From positions 186,001-250,000 of the forward strand of contig JACRDG010000048.1 in assembly GCA_016218715.1 (NCBI GenBank): DNA of 64,000 bases, in the 5' to 3' direction. Numbering within the stretch: position 1 is the first letter of the stretch; each line of letters begins with the position of its first letter. The translations under genes and the position numbers were made by a program. The DNA comes from Desulfomonile tiedjei (lineage in GTDB: Bacteria > Desulfobacterota > Desulfomonilia > Desulfomonilales > Desulfomonilaceae). The notes under the pieces are model-generated. The model was not told where the DNA came from. It ran no database searches and worked only from the letters and a program-made list of their open reading frames with translations. Below, in pieces: positions 3,578 to 60,678 of this stretch.

Positions 3578-4042
3578 ATGAGGATTCTCGATTTCCTCCG
3601 CTCAGACGGAATCATTTGCCCCCTGCAGGCGTCTTCCAAGGAAGAGGTTCTCGTCGAACTCGTCGAACCGATTGCCCGGACGCACCCGCATCTCGATCAA
3701 CCCGAATTGGTGAGAACCCTCCTCGACCGAGAGAAGCTCGGCAGCACCGGCATCGGTGGAGGCATTGCGATCCCTCACGGTAAAGTGGAAGGGTTGAAGG
3801 AGCTTGTTGCAAGCTTCGGCAAGAGTTCCAGCGGGATAAACTTCAATTCCATGGACGGCAAACCGGCGCACATCTTCTTCCTGCTGGTCGCTCCCAAGAA
3901 CTCGGCGAGCGACCACCTGAAAGCCTTGGCGCGCATCTCAAGACTCCTGAAGGATCCGCTCTTGCTCAACAGTTTGCAGAAGGCGGACTCGGCGAAGGAG
4001 ATCTTTCGCCTGCTCGAAGACTACGATCTGCGAGTCCCGTAG
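3578..4042 (+). CDS. ptsN: PTS IIA-like nitrogen regulatory protein PtsN
   Basis: This 154-residue protein is a single EIIA (fructose/mannitol type) domain. The phosphorylatable histidine is H67 in the motif GGGIAIPHGKV. PtsN normally receives phosphate from a PTS phosphorelay (PtsP/PtsO) and regulates nitrogen, potassium and stress responses rather than importing sugar. The upstream gap of about 200 nt holds a hairpin, so it may have its own promoter. It converges on hisH, with a family A palindromic repeat between them. No sugar-transporting PTS components are visible nearby. Confidence 0.88.
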   Translation: MRILDFLRSDGIICPLQASSKEEVLVELVEPIARTHPHLDQPELVRTLLDREKLGSTGIGGGIAIPHGKVEGLKELVASFGKSSSGINFNSMDGKPAHIFFLLVAPKNSASDHLKALARISRLLKDPLLLNSLQKADSAKEIFRLLEDYDLRVP

Positions 4043-4063
4043 CCCGACGGTCGCATGCATCCA

Positions 4064-4153
4064 ATACCAAGTCGCATGCAAGAGAGTAATCTGGGGAGAA
4101 CCTCTTTAAAAAAAAGTTCCCCCCAAATTAATCTTTGGATTGAACCTCGGTAT
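4064..4153. repeat. Family A palindromic repeat, copy 1
   Basis: An imperfect palindrome of about 90 bp lies between the convergent ptsN and hisH. Its outer arms are ATACCAAGTCGCATGC / GATTGAACCTCGGTAT and its inner arms are CTGGGGAGAAC / AAGTTCCCCCCA. The far end overlaps the hisH stop codon, read as TGATACC on the minus strand. It is also a plausible bidirectional terminator. Confidence 0.75.
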
Positions 4154-4758
4154 CAGAGCTTGGCGAAGTTGGAGAGGATCTTCAGCCCGTTCTCCTGGCT
4201 TTTCTCCGGGTGGAACTGGACCGCAAATACGTTTCCCCTGGCCACCGCGCAGGTGAACCGAATACCGTACTCGCTCTCCGCCGCGATATCCGCAGGCTCG
4301 TCCGGCACGACGTAGTACGAGTGGACGAAGTAGAAGAACGAACCGTCCTCGATACCTCGGAAAATCGGCACGTCCTCGCTGAAGGAAACGTTGTTCCATC
4401 CCATGTGGGGGATCTTCAGCCCCATATTCCTGTCGAAGGCTTTCACTTTTCCTGGAATAATCTTCAACCCCGCGTGCGCGCCGAATTCTTCCGATTCGTC
4501 AAAGAGCAGTTGCAGTCCGAGACAGATCCCGAGGAAGGGCCGGCCGGATCGGATGAACTCGATGACCGGTTCCGCCAGATTCAACCGGCCGAGGTTTCTC
4601 ATGCATTCCGGAAACGCGCCGACACCCGGAAGGACTAGTCGCGACGCCGTTCGTACCGCTTCAGGGTCGCGTGAGACGACCGCGGGACAGCCCACCTTCT
4701 CGAATCCTTTTTGGACACTGCGCAGGTTGCCCATTCCGTAATCAACTACTACTACCAT
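4153..4758 (-). CDS. hisH: Imidazole glycerol phosphate synthase, glutaminase subunit HisH
   Basis: This 201-residue class I glutamine amidotransferase has its nucleophilic cysteine C79 in FLGICLGLQ and the catalytic His/Glu in QFHPEKS (H183, E185). HisH supplies ammonia to HisF for ring closure of PRFAR to IGP and AICAR in histidine biosynthesis. Length and motifs are complete. It is the last gene of the minus-strand group murA-hisB-hisH, and HisF is not in the window. A family A repeat separates it from hisB, and another begins at its stop codon. Confidence 0.95.
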   Translation of the reverse strand: MVVVVDYGMGNLRSVQKGFEKVGCPAVVSRDPEAVRTASRLVLPGVGAFPECMRNLGRLNLAEPVIEFIRSGRPFLGICLGLQLLFDESEEFGAHAGLKIIPGKVKAFDRNMGLKIPHMGWNNVSFSEDVPIFRGIEDGSFFYFVHSYYVVPDEPADIAAESEYGIRFTCAVARGNVFAVQFHPEKSQENGLKILSNFAKL

Positions 4759-4792
4759 TCAAACCTCTGCCCCAGGCCCGCATTGGGGTGTT

Positions 4793-4885
4793 ATGCCGAT
4801 TCGCATTCCAAGGAGTTATTCCGGGGGGAACTTCTTTGTGTAAAGAAGGTCCCCCCAGATTACTTCTCTGAATGCGAATCGGTAT
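4793..4885. repeat. Family A palindromic repeat, copy 2
   Basis: A near-perfect palindrome of about 93 bp lies between hisB and hisH on the same strand. Its outer arms are ATGCCGATTCGCATTC / GAATGCGAATCGGTAT and its inner arms are GGGGGGAACTTCTTT / AAAGAAGGTCCCCCC around a 4-nt loop. It reaches the first base of the hisB TAA stop codon. Confidence 0.8.
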
Positions 4886-5472
4886 TATTCCAGAATTCCT
4901 TTGGTGGAAGGAATGCCTCTGACCCGGGAATCACGTTCCACAGCCTGCCGCAACGCTCTTCCCAGAGCCTTGAAGATCGCCTCGGCCGCGTGGTGCGGAT
5001 TCTCCGCCGTGTGAACGGAAACGTGTAGCGTGACGCCGCCGCGATCCGCGAGCCCGTGGAGAAACACGGGGACCAGGTCCAAGGCGAAATCGCCAGCACT
5101 CCGCCCTTCGAGCGGGTTGGAATAGACCAGGAACGGGCGGCCCGAAAGATCCACTGTTACGGACGCCAGGGCTTCATCCATCGGCACCATGGCGAACCCG
5201 TAGCGGCGAATCCCGTGCTTGTCCGCCAGGGCCCGGCGGATCGCCTCCCCCGCGCACAGCCCCACATCCTCGACCGTGTGGTGATAGTCCACGTGCACGT
5301 CGCCCTGCGCGGAGATATCGAGGTCGAACAAACCGTGCTTGGACACATGGCTCAACATGTGGTCGAAGAAACCGATCCCGGTGGCTATCGAGCCTTTGCC
5401 GCTGCCATCGAGATTCAAAACGATCCGGATATCGGTTTCCTGGGTCTTGCGGGTCACTTCTGCGCTTCTCAT
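4885..5472 (-). CDS. hisB: Imidazoleglycerol-phosphate dehydratase HisB
   Basis: This 195-residue protein has the normal length of monofunctional IGP dehydratase. Metal-binding motifs of the family are present: FFDHMLSH, DVHVDYHHTVEDVG and HHAAEAIFKALGR near the C-terminus. It catalyses dehydration of IGP to imidazole-acetol phosphate. The frame stays open to 5667, but that extension is the translation of repeat family B, so the ATG at 5472 (MRSAEVTRKTQ) is the right start. No phosphatase domain is fused. Confidence 0.93.
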   Translation of the reverse strand: MRSAEVTRKTQETDIRIVLNLDGSGKGSIATGIGFFDHMLSHVSKHGLFDLDISAQGDVHVDYHHTVEDVGLCAGEAIRRALADKHGIRRYGFAMVPMDEALASVTVDLSGRPFLVYSNPLEGRSAGDFALDLVPVFLHGLADRGGVTLHVSVHTAENPHHAAEAIFKALGRALRQAVERDSRVRGIPSTKGILE

Positions 5473-21002: not shown

Positions 21003-21082
21003 CAAACCAATTTGCTTTTAATGAAGTAGTCTGGGGAGAACCCTTTTGAAAAAAAGTTTCTCCCCAAATTGCTCTCAGGTAT
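21003..21082. repeat. Family A palindromic repeat, copy 3
   Basis: A shorter, decayed copy (CTGGGGAGAACCCTTTTG / AAAAAAGTTTCTCCCCA) lies between the helicase start and the stop of the second CobB-like gene. Its end GGTATCA supplies that gene's TGA stop codon on the minus strand, as in copy 1. Confidence 0.65.
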
Positions 21083-22557
21083 CAACTCTTGGCATTCCGG
21101 GCCGTCTTTGCCCCCGCGTCCCCGTCGCACCGGACCCGGTCTGCGTCCCGGGCATCCCGCTGGGTGCGATAACGAAGGGCCATTCGCAGGAGACCTTCAG
21201 CCCAGAGGGACTCTCCAAGGGCGTGAATGTGGAGGTATGTCCCCAGCGCGTTGTGGATACAGATTCCGTCGCGGGAGCCGTCCATGCCGTGGCCGCGGAG
21301 CACGCGAAACGCGTACGATGAGCCGGCGGCATCCAGCCCCGTGATGTACGAGTAGTGGAACTCGTGACCCGTGAGCACCGCGCCTTCCGGATAAAAGGGG
21401 TTCCGGCCGGTCACTTCCACTTGAAGGTACCCGTGTCCCTGAGGTTTCCGTTCCAGCACGGTGTCCACCGGAAAGAGCCCGACCATGGGATATACGTTTT
21501 CGTCAATGCGCAGGCTCCGGGACAGGTACATCAACCCGCCGCATTCGGCGTAGACCGGCAGCCCGCCTTCGATCGCGGAGAGGAGGCTCTTCTTGAACGA
21601 CAGGTTCTCCGCGAGACGCTCCGCATGGGTTTCTGGAAAACCACCTCCTATGTACAGGGCATCCAGGCGAGGGAGCTTTCCGGGAGCCAGCCCAGAAATC
21701 TCCACGAGCTGCGCGCCCCGGGACGAAAGAGCTTCCAGGTTTTCCGGATAGTAGAACTGGAACGCGGAGTCCCTCATGACCCCGATACGAACGCCGGTTA
21801 GGCTCACCGTGCGCGGCAGGTCGACCTTGTCCGGCAGCGCATCCCATTCGAGGGAGGGAGCGGAATCCGCTATCGCGAGGATTCTATCCAAGTCCAGGGA
21901 CTGTTCCGCGGTCTCGGCCGCTTCTTCGAGGAATTCCGTGGCCCTTGGGTGCTCGTGCAGTGGGAGGAGGCCGAGATGACGCTGGGGAAAACTCGCGAGC
22001 GAGAGCTTTTTCACCGAACCGATGACCGGTATGGAACACACCTGCTCTATGGATTCCCGCAGAACGCTCTCGTGACGGGCCCCGGCTACGCGGTTGAGGA
22101 TGACCCCCCTGATATCGAGGTCAGGGTCGAGGAGACGGCATCCCAGTACCAGTGCCGCCGCAGTGCGGGTCGTCTTGGTCGCGTCGATGATGAGAATCAC
22201 CGGGGCTTTCAATAGCTTGGCCAATTCTGCCGTGCTGTAGCTCCCCGCGGCATCCACGCCGTCAAACAGTCCGCGATTCCCTTCCACCACCGCGACATCC
22301 TTACCGACAGAGCCGCGAACGAACGATTTCAGCACAACCTCTCGATCGAAGAGGTACGCGTCTAAATTGCGGGTCTCCTCACTCCCGGCGAGGCCGAGCC
22401 AGCCCGCGTCGATGTAGTCGGGACCTTTCTTGAAAACGCTGAGCGAGAGTCCTCTGCGCCGGAGCGCGGCCACGATCCCTACGGCGAGGAACGTCTTTCC
22501 CGCACCGCCTTTTAAGGCCGCGAGCACAATCCTTGGAATCGCCGATCTTTCCGTCAT
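21082..22557 (-). CDS. CobB/CbiA-like amidase, probable sirohaem amidase (DsrN-like), second copy
   Basis: From the ATG at 22557 (MTERSAIPRIVLAALKGGAGKTF) this is 491 residues; a GTG at 22563 is also possible. Domains are an N-terminal dethiobiotin-synthetase-like P-loop (GGAGKTF; DYIDAGWLGLAG) and a C-terminal class I glutaminase (about 250-455) with Cys in YAECGGLMYL and His in LTGHEFHYS. CobB/CbiA amidates acetate side chains of cobyrinate; the homologue DsrN in dsr operons amidates sirohaem for sulfite reductase. It is a paralogue of the gene 14 nt upstream. The position next to dsrAB favours the sirohaem role, but cobalamin synthesis cannot be excluded. Confidence 0.85.
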   Translation of the reverse strand: MTERSAIPRIVLAALKGGAGKTFLAVGIVAALRRRGLSLSVFKKGPDYIDAGWLGLAGSEETRNLDAYLFDREVVLKSFVRGSVGKDVAVVEGNRGLFDGVDAAGSYSTAELAKLLKAPVILIIDATKTTRTAAALVLGCRLLDPDLDIRGVILNRVAGARHESVLRESIEQVCSIPVIGSVKKLSLASFPQRHLGLLPLHEHPRATEFLEEAAETAEQSLDLDRILAIADSAPSLEWDALPDKVDLPRTVSLTGVRIGVMRDSAFQFYYPENLEALSSRGAQLVEISGLAPGKLPRLDALYIGGGFPETHAERLAENLSFKKSLLSAIEGGLPVYAECGGLMYLSRSLRIDENVYPMVGLFPVDTVLERKPQGHGYLQVEVTGRNPFYPEGAVLTGHEFHYSYITGLDAAGSSYAFRVLRGHGMDGSRDGICIHNALGTYLHIHALGESLWAEGLLRMALRYRTQRDARDADRVRCDGDAGAKTARNAKS

Positions 22558-36041: not shown

Positions 36042-37493
36042 ATGAACCGCTTCGAGAACAGTCCGCTCTACCAGATCATGCACCCGCACAGCGTCGCCTT
36101 CTGGGGAGCTTCGAGCAATCCCACCGGAATGGGGACCGTCCAGTTGACTCAGCTCCTCGCGATGGGCTTCCCCGGACAGGTATACCCGATGCATCCCCGG
36201 GAGACGGAGATCTTGGGGCTCAAGGCGTACGCGCACCCGGCCGATCTGCCGGGCCCGGTGGATCTGGCAATTTTCGTGCTCCCCACGAAGGTGGTTCCCG
36301 AGGTGATGGAAGAGTGCGGAAAGGCAGGGATAAAGCGGATTATCATCGTGTCCGCGGGGTTCGGCGAGGTTGGGCCGGACGGCCAAGAGATGCAGAACCG
36401 CCTCGTGGAAATTGCGCGACAGTATGGGATCACCTTTCTCGGCCCCAACTGCATTGGGGTGGTCAATACCTACTCAAGGCTGAATACTACGTTCTTTCCG
36501 TACGACGGTTCCCGCGGTTTTGTGGGCCTGGCCTCGCAAAGCGGGAGTTTCATCACGCAGACGTTCGTGAGCCTCGAGAAACTGGGGCTCGGTTTCAGCC
36601 AGGCGGTGAGCGTGGGGAACGAGGCGATGATCGACCAGGTGGCCTGCCTGGAGTATCTCGGCGACTGCCCTCAGACGAGGGTGATCGGCATGTACGTGGA
36701 AGGGATACGCCGGGGAAGGGAGTTCTTTCGCGTGGCCCGCGAGGTATCCAGGAAGAAGCCGATCGTCGCGTACTACGTTGGCGGGTCGGAATCGGGTCGC
36801 CGTGCAGCGCTTTCTCATACCGGGGTGCTGGCCGGACCGGATCGGCTCTATGAGGGGATCTTCCGGCAGTGCGGGATCATCCGAGCCAGGACGATGGAGG
36901 AGCTCTTCGATTTTTGCGCGGTGCTCGGGAGTCAGCCGCTGCCTCGGAGCGACCGCGTCGCGGTGCTGACCCATTCAGGCGGCCCCGGCGCTGCAGCCGC
37001 GGACACGGCCGAGCGCACCGGAATGCACCTCGCTGTTTTTTCACCACAAACCGTCGAGGCGCTCAAGCAGATCGTGCCCCATACGGCCAGCGTGGCCAAT
37101 CCCGTGGACCTGACGTTCAACCGCAATCCGAACGATTATACGGAAACGATCCCGGGAGTGCTCCTCGCGGACGACTCGGTGGACAGCATGTTCCTGTACA
37201 CGCTCTTGCCGTGGCGTCGGGTAATGCAGACCATCATGGCCATGGGCAAGACGGCTGATGAGGCCAAGATCATGGCTGACAGCTTCGTGGCAGCCCAAGC
37301 GGACGCGGTGGTTCGGACCTGGACGGAGCGCGGCAAGCCGATGGTAGGAGGTTCGTTCTGCACCCGGGACGAGACCTTCATCCGTGAGCTCCAGGACCGA
37401 GGGTTTCCCGTCCTCCCCAGCCCCGAACGCGCGGTGAGAGCCCTGGCCGCCTTGACCCAATACGCACGGTACCGCGGAGACGCGGAGCATTGA
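36042..37493 (+). CDS. NDP-forming acyl-CoA synthetase, alpha-subunit type
   Basis: This 483-residue protein has a CoA-binding Rossmann domain (about 5-135: SVAFWGASSNPTGMGTVQL, GPVDLAIFVLP) and succinyl-CoA-ligase-like domains (about 145-470) with the phosphorylatable His in AALSHTGVLAG. It lacks the ATP-grasp beta domain, so it needs a separate beta subunit, which is not in the window. Such enzymes interconvert acyl-CoA plus NDP with acid plus NTP. GGAGG lies about 9 nt before the ATG. It could conserve energy in acid oxidation. Its TGA stop begins family A repeat copy 4. Confidence 0.85.
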   Translation: MNRFENSPLYQIMHPHSVAFWGASSNPTGMGTVQLTQLLAMGFPGQVYPMHPRETEILGLKAYAHPADLPGPVDLAIFVLPTKVVPEVMEECGKAGIKRIIIVSAGFGEVGPDGQEMQNRLVEIARQYGITFLGPNCIGVVNTYSRLNTTFFPYDGSRGFVGLASQSGSFITQTFVSLEKLGLGFSQAVSVGNEAMIDQVACLEYLGDCPQTRVIGMYVEGIRRGREFFRVAREVSRKKPIVAYYVGGSESGRRAALSHTGVLAGPDRLYEGIFRQCGIIRARTMEELFDFCAVLGSQPLPRSDRVAVLTHSGGPGAAAADTAERTGMHLAVFSPQTVEALKQIVPHTASVANPVDLTFNRNPNDYTETIPGVLLADDSVDSMFLYTLLPWRRVMQTIMAMGKTADEAKIMADSFVAAQADAVVRTWTERGKPMVGGSFCTRDETFIRELQDRGFPVLPSPERAVRALAALTQYARYRGDAEH

Positions 37494-37584
37494 CACCAAG
37501 TCGCAATGCAAAGAGTAATCTTTGGGGCGAACTTCATTGTGCAAAAAAGTTCCCCCAGATAACCTCTTCGATTGCGAATCGGTT
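37493..37584. repeat. Family A palindromic repeat, copy 4
   Basis: The outer arms are ACACCAAGTCGCAATGC / GATTGCGAATCGGTTT and the inner arms are TTTGGGGCGAACTTC / AAAAAAGTTCCCCCAGA. It lies exactly between two convergent genes: its left end abuts the TGA of the acyl-CoA synthetase and its right end forms the TAA of the glycosyltransferase. Confidence 0.75.
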
Positions 37585-38555
37585 TAGTCCCTCGGTAGGC
37601 CGGGGCCGGGCGGGCATCCACGGAGGTGCCATTTCCAGAGGTCGGATCTGACCCGGAATTGGTTTGCCACGGAGGAGGCTTTTCCCAGGGTGGCGATCAT
37701 TGCCAGGCCAAGCGCGACCACATTCAGGGCGAGGTTTGCAGTCATAGCCGCTCTGAGGACATACGCGGACGTGAGGCCGTAATGTCTCTCGAAGAAGCGG
37801 TACCGGGACCGGTAGAACTCGATGCGCGCGGCGGCCTGATACGTCTTCGCGGTAGCGCCCTGCAAGTGGACCGCTCGGGCGCGCGGCTCGTGGACGACTT
37901 TCCAGCTACCGCGACGCATTCTCACTGCCAGGTCGGTCTCTTCCAGAAAAAAGAAGTACCCTTCGTCAAACCCGCCGAGTTGCGCCAGCGCTTCCCGTCG
38001 CAGCAGCATCACCGCGCCGATAAGCGCCTCCACTTCCGTTGGACCGGTAAGCCGCCGGGATTTATGCGGGAATCTCGCGGGAAAGAGTCGCTTCAGGAGG
38101 CTCCGATTCAGCGTCTCGGTGGCCAGAGTCGGGACCGCTTCGTACGACGTCTGGAGCGTGCCGTCCGCATTGAGCAATTGAGGCCCTGCCATGCCGATGC
38201 GCGGGTCGGAATCCATGAGATCCAACAGCCTGGCCGCGCAGTCCGGCTCCAGGAGTGCGTCCGTGTTGACGAGGAGCACGAACCTTCCCCGTGCCTGTTC
38301 GAGCGCCAGGTTGTTGGCCGCAGCGAACCCGAGATTCCGCCCCGCCTCGATGAGGACCGCCTCCGGAAAAGCAGCCCGCACCCGCGCAACGGATTCGTCG
38401 GTGGAACCGTTGTCCACCACGATCGCTTCCGGTCGCTCAGGAAGCGTCGAGGCATAGATCCGATCGAGGCAGCGAACGAGGAGGTCTGCGGTGTTGCGAT
38501 TCACCACGATACAGGAGAGAAGAATCTCAGAGGAAGTGTGGGCATGTGGGTTCAT
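37584..38555 (-). CDS. Family 2 glycosyltransferase (rhamnosyltransferase-like)
   Basis: The ATG at 38555 gives 323 residues; the open frame to 38837 is non-conserved. GT-A motifs are SCIVVNRNTADLLVRCLDRI, VVDNGSTDESV, the metal-binding LVNTDALLEPD and a later EETDLAVRMRR. A C-terminal hydrophobic segment (about 265-295) may anchor it. It probably adds a sugar to an O-antigen or other surface polysaccharide. It follows moaA on the strand, with a short family A element between; functional linkage is doubtful. Confidence 0.87.
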   Translation of the reverse strand: MNPHAHTSSEILLSCIVVNRNTADLLVRCLDRIYASTLPERPEAIVVDNGSTDESVARVRAAFPEAVLIEAGRNLGFAAANNLALEQARGRFVLLVNTDALLEPDCAARLLDLMDSDPRIGMAGPQLLNADGTLQTSYEAVPTLATETLNRSLLKRLFPARFPHKSRRLTGPTEVEALIGAVMLLRREALAQLGGFDEGYFFFLEETDLAVRMRRGSWKVVHEPRARAVHLQGATAKTYQAAARIEFYRSRYRFFERHYGLTSAYVLRAAMTANLALNVVALGLAMIATLGKASSVANQFRVRSDLWKWHLRGCPPGPGLPRD

Positions 38556-38568
38556 TAATTGGGAGTCT

Positions 38569-38620
38569 TCGAAGGGGGTCTGGGGGAAACTTTCGGTAGA
38601 AAAGTTCCCCCAGCATCTTC
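38569..38620. repeat. Family A repeat, short copy 5
   Basis: Only the inner hairpin is kept: CTGGGGGAAACTTTC / AAAAGTTCCCCCAG (38580-38613). It lies between the moaA stop and the glycosyltransferase start and could act as an intercistronic terminator. Confidence 0.6.
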
Positions 38621-43814: not shown

Positions 43815-45098
43815 ATGTACGATTTCTTGTTAACACCCGAAGAGGCGGCCCTGAAAAGGGAGGCAAGGGAATTCGTCCGCACGGAGATCACCAGCGATTT
43901 CCTGAGGAGAATGGACAACAACGACATCACGTACCCTCGCGAGTTCGTCGAAAAGCTGGCCGAACGGAATCTGCGGGGAATCCGCTTCCCCAAGCGTTAC
44001 GGCGGGAGAGAGATGTCCTGGGTGGCGGAGGTTGCGGCTACCGAGGAGATCGGGTGTCTCGGCATGGCGCTGGGATGCGCGTTTGTCATGCCCTCCATCG
44101 TGGGAGAAGCCTTGAACACGTTCGGCACAGAGGAGCAGAAGGAGAAATACCTCAAGCCCTACCTCGAAGGAAAGCTCGTCGCCGCGGAAGCATTGACCGA
44201 ACCGAGGGGCGGATCTGACTTCTTTGGCGCCACCACCAGAGCGGTCCTCGACGGCGACCACTTCACCCTCACCGGTCAGAAGCGTTTTGTGGTCGGAGCC
44301 GAAGGCGCGGACTTCTTCGTGGTATACTGCCGCACCAATTTCGATCCGAATTGCCACAAGTATCAGCGTCTGAGCCTCCTGATCGTTGAGAAAGGCCCTG
44401 GGGTCGAGACGGAATATCTGTACGGTCTGATGGGGTGCAAGGGCGGCGGCACCGGGAGGCTCGTGTTCCGGGACGTCAAGGTCCCGAAGGAAAACCTCGT
44501 CGGCGAGCTGCACAGCGGAGCGCTTTGCTTCAACCAGATGATGATTCCCGAGCGTCTGACCTCCGCTGCCGGTTGTCTGGGCATGTGGGGCGCACTTGAT
44601 CTGGCCGTGCGGTATTCCACCAGGCGGAAGGCCTTTGGCAGACACATCCGTGATTTCCAGGCGGTCAGCTTCATGGTTGCGGAGTCCGTCACGCAACTGG
44701 ATGCCGCCAGAGGGCTTGCCTACCTCGCGGCGCGGGCGGTCGACGAAAACTATCCCTATGCACGGCGACTCGTGAGTGAGGCCAAGAGTTTCGCGACCCA
44801 GTCCGCGTGGAACATCGTCAACAACGCGATGCAGATCATGGGAGGCATCGGTTACACCGACGTGTACCCGATAGAGCGGGCTCTCAGGGATACGAGACTT
44901 GCCATGATATGGACCGGAACCAGTCAGATCATGAACCTGCTGATCCAGCACGAATACTACAATCAAGTCCTGGATCCGGCTTACGATCGCCGTAAGATGG
45001 AAAAGGACGCGATGCATCCCGACGAGAGCGAGCGCTGCTACACCGACGAGGACATGTGGGAGGTCCACAATCAACCGGCTCCCAGACGTTCAATCTAA
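43815..45098 (+). CDS. Acyl-CoA dehydrogenase family flavoprotein
   Basis: This 427-residue protein starts after GAAGGAGG. N-terminal helices, a middle beta domain (AAEALTEPRGGSDFFG, TGQKRFVVGAEGADFFVVY) and a C-terminal helical domain (RRKAFGRHIRDFQAV, IMGGIGYTDVYPIERALRD) make the complete FAD fold. The usual catalytic-base motif Y-E-G-T reads WTGT (IWTGTSQIM), so the classical Glu is absent and the base, if any, lies elsewhere. The substrate is probably a CoA thioester with unusual structure. It carries a regulated promoter and a downstream TetR-type regulator. Confidence 0.88.
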   Translation: MYDFLLTPEEAALKREAREFVRTEITSDFLRRMDNNDITYPREFVEKLAERNLRGIRFPKRYGGREMSWVAEVAATEEIGCLGMALGCAFVMPSIVGEALNTFGTEEQKEKYLKPYLEGKLVAAEALTEPRGGSDFFGATTRAVLDGDHFTLTGQKRFVVGAEGADFFVVYCRTNFDPNCHKYQRLSLLIVEKGPGVETEYLYGLMGCKGGGTGRLVFRDVKVPKENLVGELHSGALCFNQMMIPERLTSAAGCLGMWGALDLAVRYSTRRKAFGRHIRDFQAVSFMVAESVTQLDAARGLAYLAARAVDENYPYARRLVSEAKSFATQSAWNIVNNAMQIMGGIGYTDVYPIERALRDTRLAMIWTGTSQIMNLLIQHEYYNQVLDPAYDRRKMEKDAMHPDESERCYTDEDMWEVHNQPAPRRSI

Positions 45099-45190
45099 TG
45101 CCAATGCGCAGCCAAAGAAGTAATCTGGGGGGAACTTCTTTGCACAAAGAAGTTCCCCCCAAAGTTGCTCTTTTGATTGGGCATTGGTAT
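45098..45190. repeat. Family A palindromic repeat, copy 6
   Basis: This is the best-preserved inner hairpin: CTGGGGGGAACTTCTTTG / CAAAGAAGTTCCCCCCA around a 2-nt loop. Its outer arms are ATGCCAATGCGC / GGGCATTGGTAT. The left end abuts the TAA of the acyl-CoA dehydrogenase and the right end lies 25 nt before the TetR start. Confidence 0.8.
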
Positions 45191-53959: not shown

Positions 53960-54085
53960 CCTCTGTGGCCCCATTGGTGGGACAGGCATCTTGCCTGTCA
54001 CTTCTTGATGGACCGGCAAGATGCCGGCCCCACGGAACAGCCAAGAACAGAGCCTCCAAGAGAGACCGTACTTACGAAAGGAAGT
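53960..54085. repeat. Family B repeat, copy 3
   Basis: The core (53976-54033) is GGTGGGACAGGCATCTTGCC / ACCGGCAAGATGCCGGCCCC. The tail CACGGAACAGCCAAGAACAG and the outer TACTTACGAAAG match copy 4. Confidence 0.8.
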
Positions 54086-54811: not shown

Positions 54812-54968
54812 AAGTACACCATTTCAGAAGTCCGGTCGCTTATTCTAGGTTTCTTGGTGGGACAGGCATCTTGCCTGTCACTTCGTAATGGACCGGCAAG
54901 ATGCCGGCCCCACTGAAAAGCCAAGAGCAGAGCCTTCAAGCGAGACCGTATTTATGAAAACGAGTACT
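54812..54968. repeat. Family B repeat, copy 4 (most complete)
   Basis: The outer arms are AAGTACACCATTTC and TTATGAAAACGAGTACT; the core (54855-54913) has GACAGGCATCTTGCCTGTC and ACCGGCAAGATGCCGG. The tail CACTGAAAAGCCAAGAGCAG is shared with copies 2 and 3. It lies between convergent genes. Confidence 0.8.
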
Positions 54969-60521: not shown

Positions 60522-60678
60522 ATACCAATGTGCGATTCAATAAGTAATATTGCTGAAGGGCGCTCCTGGGAGGTCTCCGGAGCGCAGCCAGGCTGTGCCG
60601 TTCGTAGCGGAGGAGGCCCCCAGGAACAGCCCAGAGCAGAGTCCTCGGATGTTACAAGTTGAACTGCACAGTGGTATC
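60522..60678. repeat. Family A repeat, copy 7, hybrid with family B-like interior
   Basis: The outer arms ATACCAATGTGCGATTCAAT / AGTTGAACTGCACAGTGGTA are family A. The interior lacks the GGGGGGAACTTC arms and instead holds GGCCCCCAGGAACAGCCCAG and AGCAGAGTCCTC, matching the tail of family B. Confidence 0.6.

Follow-up and report, generated by a model that had tools for sequence, protein, structure and literature searches.

Miniature TNA-inserting elements in a Desulfomonile tiedjei genome and their frequent placement on stop codons

The palindromic repeats that touch stop codons in this Desulfomonile tiedjei genome are two related families of miniature inverted-repeat (MITE-like) elements, here called A and B, which are inserted at TNA triplets, preferably within C-TNA-G, with duplication of the three bases. 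TNA includes TAA and TGA, two of the three stop codons, and its remaining forms, TTA and TCA, are the same two codons on the other strand. Since each TNA is TAA or TGA on one strand or the other, an insertion at an in-frame stop keeps a complete stop codon and leaves the protein unchanged. We think it probable that the elements are TNA-inserting, non-autonomous mini-transposons whose old A copies lie on stops mostly through survival.

A first-pass annotation of the window (the whole 64,000-nucleotide stretch of DNA that was analysed) had listed seven copies of one family with ends at stop codons. Four of them (4064, 4793, 37493 and 45098) are indeed full elements of about 92 bp with both ends and the one at 21003 has a damaged right arm, while the entry at 38569 is a bare core hairpin and the one at 60522 belongs to family B:

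4064..4153: family A element, 90 bp; hisH ends (TGA) at the right triplet, TCA 4153-4155
4793..4885: family A element, 93 bp, in the hisB-hisH gap, with TTA 4791-4793 and TTA 4885-4887
21004..21082: family A element, right arm shortened; right end GGTA followed by TCA
37493..37585: family A element in a convergent gap; TGA 37491-37493 on its left
38573..38615: isolated A-like core hairpin without termini, just 3' of moaA (E 0.012)
45098..45190: family A element; an acyl-CoA-dehydrogenase-like gene stops at TAA 45096-45098 on its left
60522..60677: family B element, 157-bp type; TCA duplicated on both sides, away from stop codons

The five A copies all have an edge that is exactly a stop. The TTA triplets round 4793..4885 are the target duplication and correspond to the TAA stop of hisB (minus strand), TCA 21082-21084 is the TGA stop of a cobyrinate a,c-diamide synthase-like gene, and TGA 37491-37493 is the stop of an acyl-CoA-synthetase-like gene. 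The copy at 37493 had been described as forming the stops of two convergent genes with its two ends; there is a stop on each side, and the right one, that of a glycosyltransferase-like gene, is met with an offset of one base. The other two entries stand apart: 38573..38615 is doubtful as a member of family A, and the nearest upstream stop of the 60522 element is 381 nt off. A further hairpin repeat (GTGGGACAGGCATCTTGCCTGTC / GACCGGCAAGATGCCGGCCCCAC) occurs twice in the window, at 53977-54033 and 54844-54926.

Family A is a palindrome of about 92 bp that also occurs in a form of 224-226 bp made of three hairpins, the central one having a side hairpin on each flank; the 92-bp form looks like a deletion product of the 224-bp form in which either side hairpin is retained. 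Family B is 157 bp long with two recognisable ends, and shares with A its terminal sequence only, the termini of both being TACC(A/G)A..TCGC-like. When 132 ends were aligned outward from the tip, the consensus was C-T-N-A followed by TACC(A/G)A(G/T)TCGC..., and 83% of the ends carry the T two positions ahead of the A. Two features by which MITEs are recognised are therefore present, namely inverted terminal repeats (the 132 ends with TACC(A/G)A..TCGC) and a target duplication of fixed length (3 bp, TNA). The arm motif has 10 matches at up to three mismatches, which is above chance, as the shuffle mean is 2.09 and 0 of 100 shuffles reach 10. Coupling of the two arms within copies is absent over the outer 26 nt (0.623 vs 0.617); over the 11-nt tip the values are 0.688 vs 0.638. 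With a model made from nine copies, family A was found at about 80 or more distinct places in the 5.55-Mb, 124-contig genome. Copies with correct ends are also present in three relatives (G005, G012 and G006), and the model had no match in 13 genomes that represent a different family within the class. One further genome, G003, was rejected as a carrier, the covariance-model matches there being hairpins mostly devoid of A termini; its loci L361-L389 form a distinct hairpin family, with edges like TATAGAGTTTTT, that the A model matches without A termini. The earlier suggestion that the repeats are mobile is thus borne out by the inverted terminal repeats, the 3-bp target duplication, the deletion series and the occurrence in several related genomes.

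The duplication is clearest in the young B family, in which identical triplets flank 25 of the 33 elements with both ends defined, and 24 of the 29 that have TNA on both sides. In the older family A, only half of the elements flanked by TNA on either side have matching triplets (15/30, against 8.3 expected; p 0.0044). The matching triplets in both families indicate that each element was transposed as a whole and that the three TNA bases were duplicated.

It had been proposed that in some copies the terminus itself supplies the stop codon. Where this could be tested, at hisH and hisB, the TGA or TAA is a native stop that belongs to the target: in relatives that lack the element, the protein stops at the same residue in 8 of 9 cases for HisB and in 9 of 9 for HisH, so that these two stops are native. 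A public locus (L210) has the same ends as one of the element-free relatives, and our own hisB junction reads TAA, then TACC...GGCA, then TAA again. The closest named HisH record is from a 'Deltaproteobacteria bacterium' MAG (69%), near-identical records being possibly missing from the comparison.

The enrichment at stop codons that the first-pass annotation had proposed to check is strongly supported, also beyond the window. Gene calls came from a codon-usage script of our own rather than a standard gene finder, and covered 66 sequences amounting to 809 kb. When an A end faces the 3' end of a gene, the stop is the exact flanking triplet in 45 of 94 cases (TGA 25, TAA 16, TAG 4), and at 12 ends the gene enters the element by exactly 25 nt, up to a built-in TAA. 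TAG makes up 4/45 of these stops but closes 162 of the 687 called genes (p 0.021), an under-use that the TNA rule predicts. By element, 39 of 69 are anchored while stops make up 7.6-8.6% of the available non-coding TNA sites (binomial p 6e-24); for 22 of these 69 pairs the second end came from a less strict search, and at least one had been mispaired (21004-21183, since corrected). In a wider set, for which one defined end sufficed, 56 of 116 A elements are anchored. Family A favours short gaps, with a median of 82 nt when empty. Inside the elements' own gaps, 35 of 50 still lie on stops where 22.8-24.4 are expected (p 1e-5 or less), 19 of the 69 elements being excluded from this gap-matched test since a gene enters the element or a neighbour is missing; the choice of gap therefore accounts for much of the excess, not for all of it. 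Convergent junctions are strongly favoured, as they hold 29 of the 48 anchored copies and represent 21% of background stops (odds ratio 5.6). The other 19 anchored copies are co-directional, and for 8 of them the next start is no more than 48 nt away, as between hisB and hisH.

How might such a pattern arise? A DDE-type transposase would act on the ends and move the elements; whenever one landed on an in-frame stop, a whole stop codon would be left at the edge of the gene and the protein would stay the same. Insertions at other short intergenic positions, in operon gaps or at coding ends would be lost or deleted, and those on stop codons, above all between convergent genes, would be neutral and persist. 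Survival of silent insertions fits both the over-representation of convergent junctions and the lower anchoring in younger sets: 2 of 15 family B copies scoring at least 155 bits and 6 of 28 weaker ones are anchored, as are 4 of 19 A copies in the younger set from G005, G012 and G006. This comparison of younger with older copies spans different families and genomes, so that age is confounded with family. Two results run the other way. Within family A the anchored copies are not older than the unanchored ones, their scores being equal or slightly better, which is not what a pure survival model predicts, and the excess within matched gaps (35 vs 23-24) exceeds what gap size gives and is counted against our preferred explanation. 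So are the agreement of the two triplets in no more than half of the A copies with TNA on both sides, and the failure to find a transposase with these ends in the genome.

These same observations leave a small probability to active targeting, because anchored A copies are not older and age is confounded with family. Here the machinery itself would prefer gene 3' ends or stops, for example DNA made accessible or supercoiled where transcription ends or at convergent junctions. The persistence of the excess once gap size is matched, the lack of an age gradient inside family A and the strong preference for convergent junctions all speak for it; the younger B copies and the A copies of the three relatives are mostly off stops, and the under-use of TAG points to a sequence rule, so that we hold it to be rather unlikely. 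We are similarly sceptical of the proposal that A insertion is steered to gene ends and tight convergent junctions by TNA together with a 3'-end cue, and so is silent by design; if true, family A would be able to read the boundaries of genes as it inserts. The idea of a targeted insertion mechanism put forward earlier accordingly stands in part, in that the TNA target accounts for some of the placement at the DNA level, and a mechanism beyond TNA is neither supported nor refuted.

Another explanation, which we regard as doubtful, is exaptation, that is, copies near stops would have been kept since their hairpin works as a transcription terminator or as a stabiliser of mRNA 3' ends. In line with it, the arms of anchored copies are slightly better paired (0.789 vs 0.737) and these copies cluster at convergent junctions. 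The per-copy pairing medians do not differ significantly, however (p 0.16-0.30), and mismatches of the G-U type in anchored copies show no excess on the mRNA strand (76 sense, 89 antisense), the co-directional copies even deviating in the wrong direction (25 sense vs 43 antisense). No terminator-like site was seen across 3900-5000, and at the two his copies, the only ones examined for this, no intrinsic terminator consisting of a stem followed by a T-run was found. The anchored copies located within operon-like gaps, 48 nt or less before the next start, are likewise hard to reconcile with termination, and Rfam 15 gave 0 matches at gathering score in the 64-kb window. As judged from sequence, the reading of these copies as terminators, which the first-pass annotation had suggested, or as selected RNA hairpins is not supported, and we saw no sign of either.

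That the repeats are REP-like elements mobilised by a RAYT (Y1) transposase appears highly improbable. They are palindromic, extragenic and close to 3' ends, published GTAG REPs can provide a TAG stop according to the accessible text of PMC3733652, and the genome has five Y1_Tnp matches. Yet the ends lack the GTAG tag in their composition, there are two symmetric ends, the 3-bp TNA duplication contradicts a RAYT reading, and the suspected link to a RAYT-like enzyme fails at all five Y1 loci (L099-L103), which have no A or B member in about 1.5 kb of flank. Chance or an ORF-calling artefact, in which genes enter the element and end at its built-in stop, does describe the twelve ends mentioned above and is hardly credible as a general account, as random frames would not yield 45 ends with the stop at the triplet, and the HisB and HisH ends agree with element-free relatives.

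The elements illustrate a simple DNA-level route to harmless insertion: with the 3-bp TNA duplication, each TAA or TGA is a safe landing site since the edge of the gene retains a whole stop codon. An excess of TAA and TGA together with a shortage of TAG is then a prediction for any element with a TNA target, the IS1031 group included. The elements also show how repeats at gene ends that resemble terminators or regulators can arise without having been selected as such.

Several known systems share part of these properties. The IS1031 group of the IS5 family is the closest in its target rule, as in the accessible text of PMC12016507 its target is 5'-TNA-3' and three bases are duplicated, which is common to both; its published ends, GAACCTGTCTAGTATCT, differ from those of A and B (PMC12016507). 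The bacterial MITEs RUP, QMITE and Correia are described, in the portions of PMC2229807 and PMC10969869 at hand, as small, non-coding and present in many copies, with inverted ends and a target duplication, all of which is also seen in the A/B elements; most of them have a terminal TA dinucleotide, unlike A and B, and those portions make no mention of an exact placement on stop codons. REP/BIME sequences are, like A and B, extragenic palindromes near 3' ends, some of them 15 nt or less from stops or supplying TAG (accessible parts of PMC12306157 and PMC3733652), whereas A and B are without GTAG tag or RAYT link and have paired ends and a duplication. The MIRUs of mycobacteria are mobile, as family A is, and likewise settle at the limits of coding sequences while affecting the gene little; unlike A and B, they insert at start codons and carry a coupled ORF (PMC12548453, as far as its available text goes). 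Elements placed on stop codons by way of a TNA duplication are not described in the accessible text of PMC10969869, PMC12306157, PMC2229807, PMC12016507, PMC12548453, PMC5896051 or PMC3733652, which is no proof of their absence from print.

With regard to the mobilising enzyme, A/B ends were found at none of the PF01797 or PF01609 loci of the genome itself, nor at the PF01609 loci of four relatives (30 examined among 64 listed). PF13586, which we take to be a marker of IS5-type transposases, had 0 matches in the genome at E 0.01, a difference from what a relationship with IS1031/IS5 would entail. The enzyme may have died out in this genome, may lie outside the assembly or may belong to a family beyond those searched. 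Four candidates for an autonomous partner were considered and rejected. The 463-aa transposase inside an A element of the 224-bp type at L108 is of the IS701 family (NF049999, 317 bits, cut-off 170); it belongs to an element whose ends, CTATAGTTTCGC, are its own and whose duplication, read from the flanks, is about 7 bp; this element merely landed inside the palindrome. At L292 two A-type ends lie 2.1 kb apart and enclose ordinary genes. A 466-aa DDE element of G005, with an end starting ACCGATTCTCG, has flanks that suggest a duplication of about 7 bp, and the A element at L309 contains a nested ORF that is GIY-YIG-like by eye. The outer A element at L108:768-2479 (G000:C112) is enclosed by the two arms of an inverted repeat (about 18-20 bp), one of them formed by the coding end of the adjacent gene, and at L309:2633-3286 (G000:C108) a small-ORF unit with its own inverted repeats is nested between A hairpins. 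Finally, the loci L139-L158 of G005 contain 16 or more nearly identical IS701-family copies, the product of a recent burst; their duplications measure about 7 bp.
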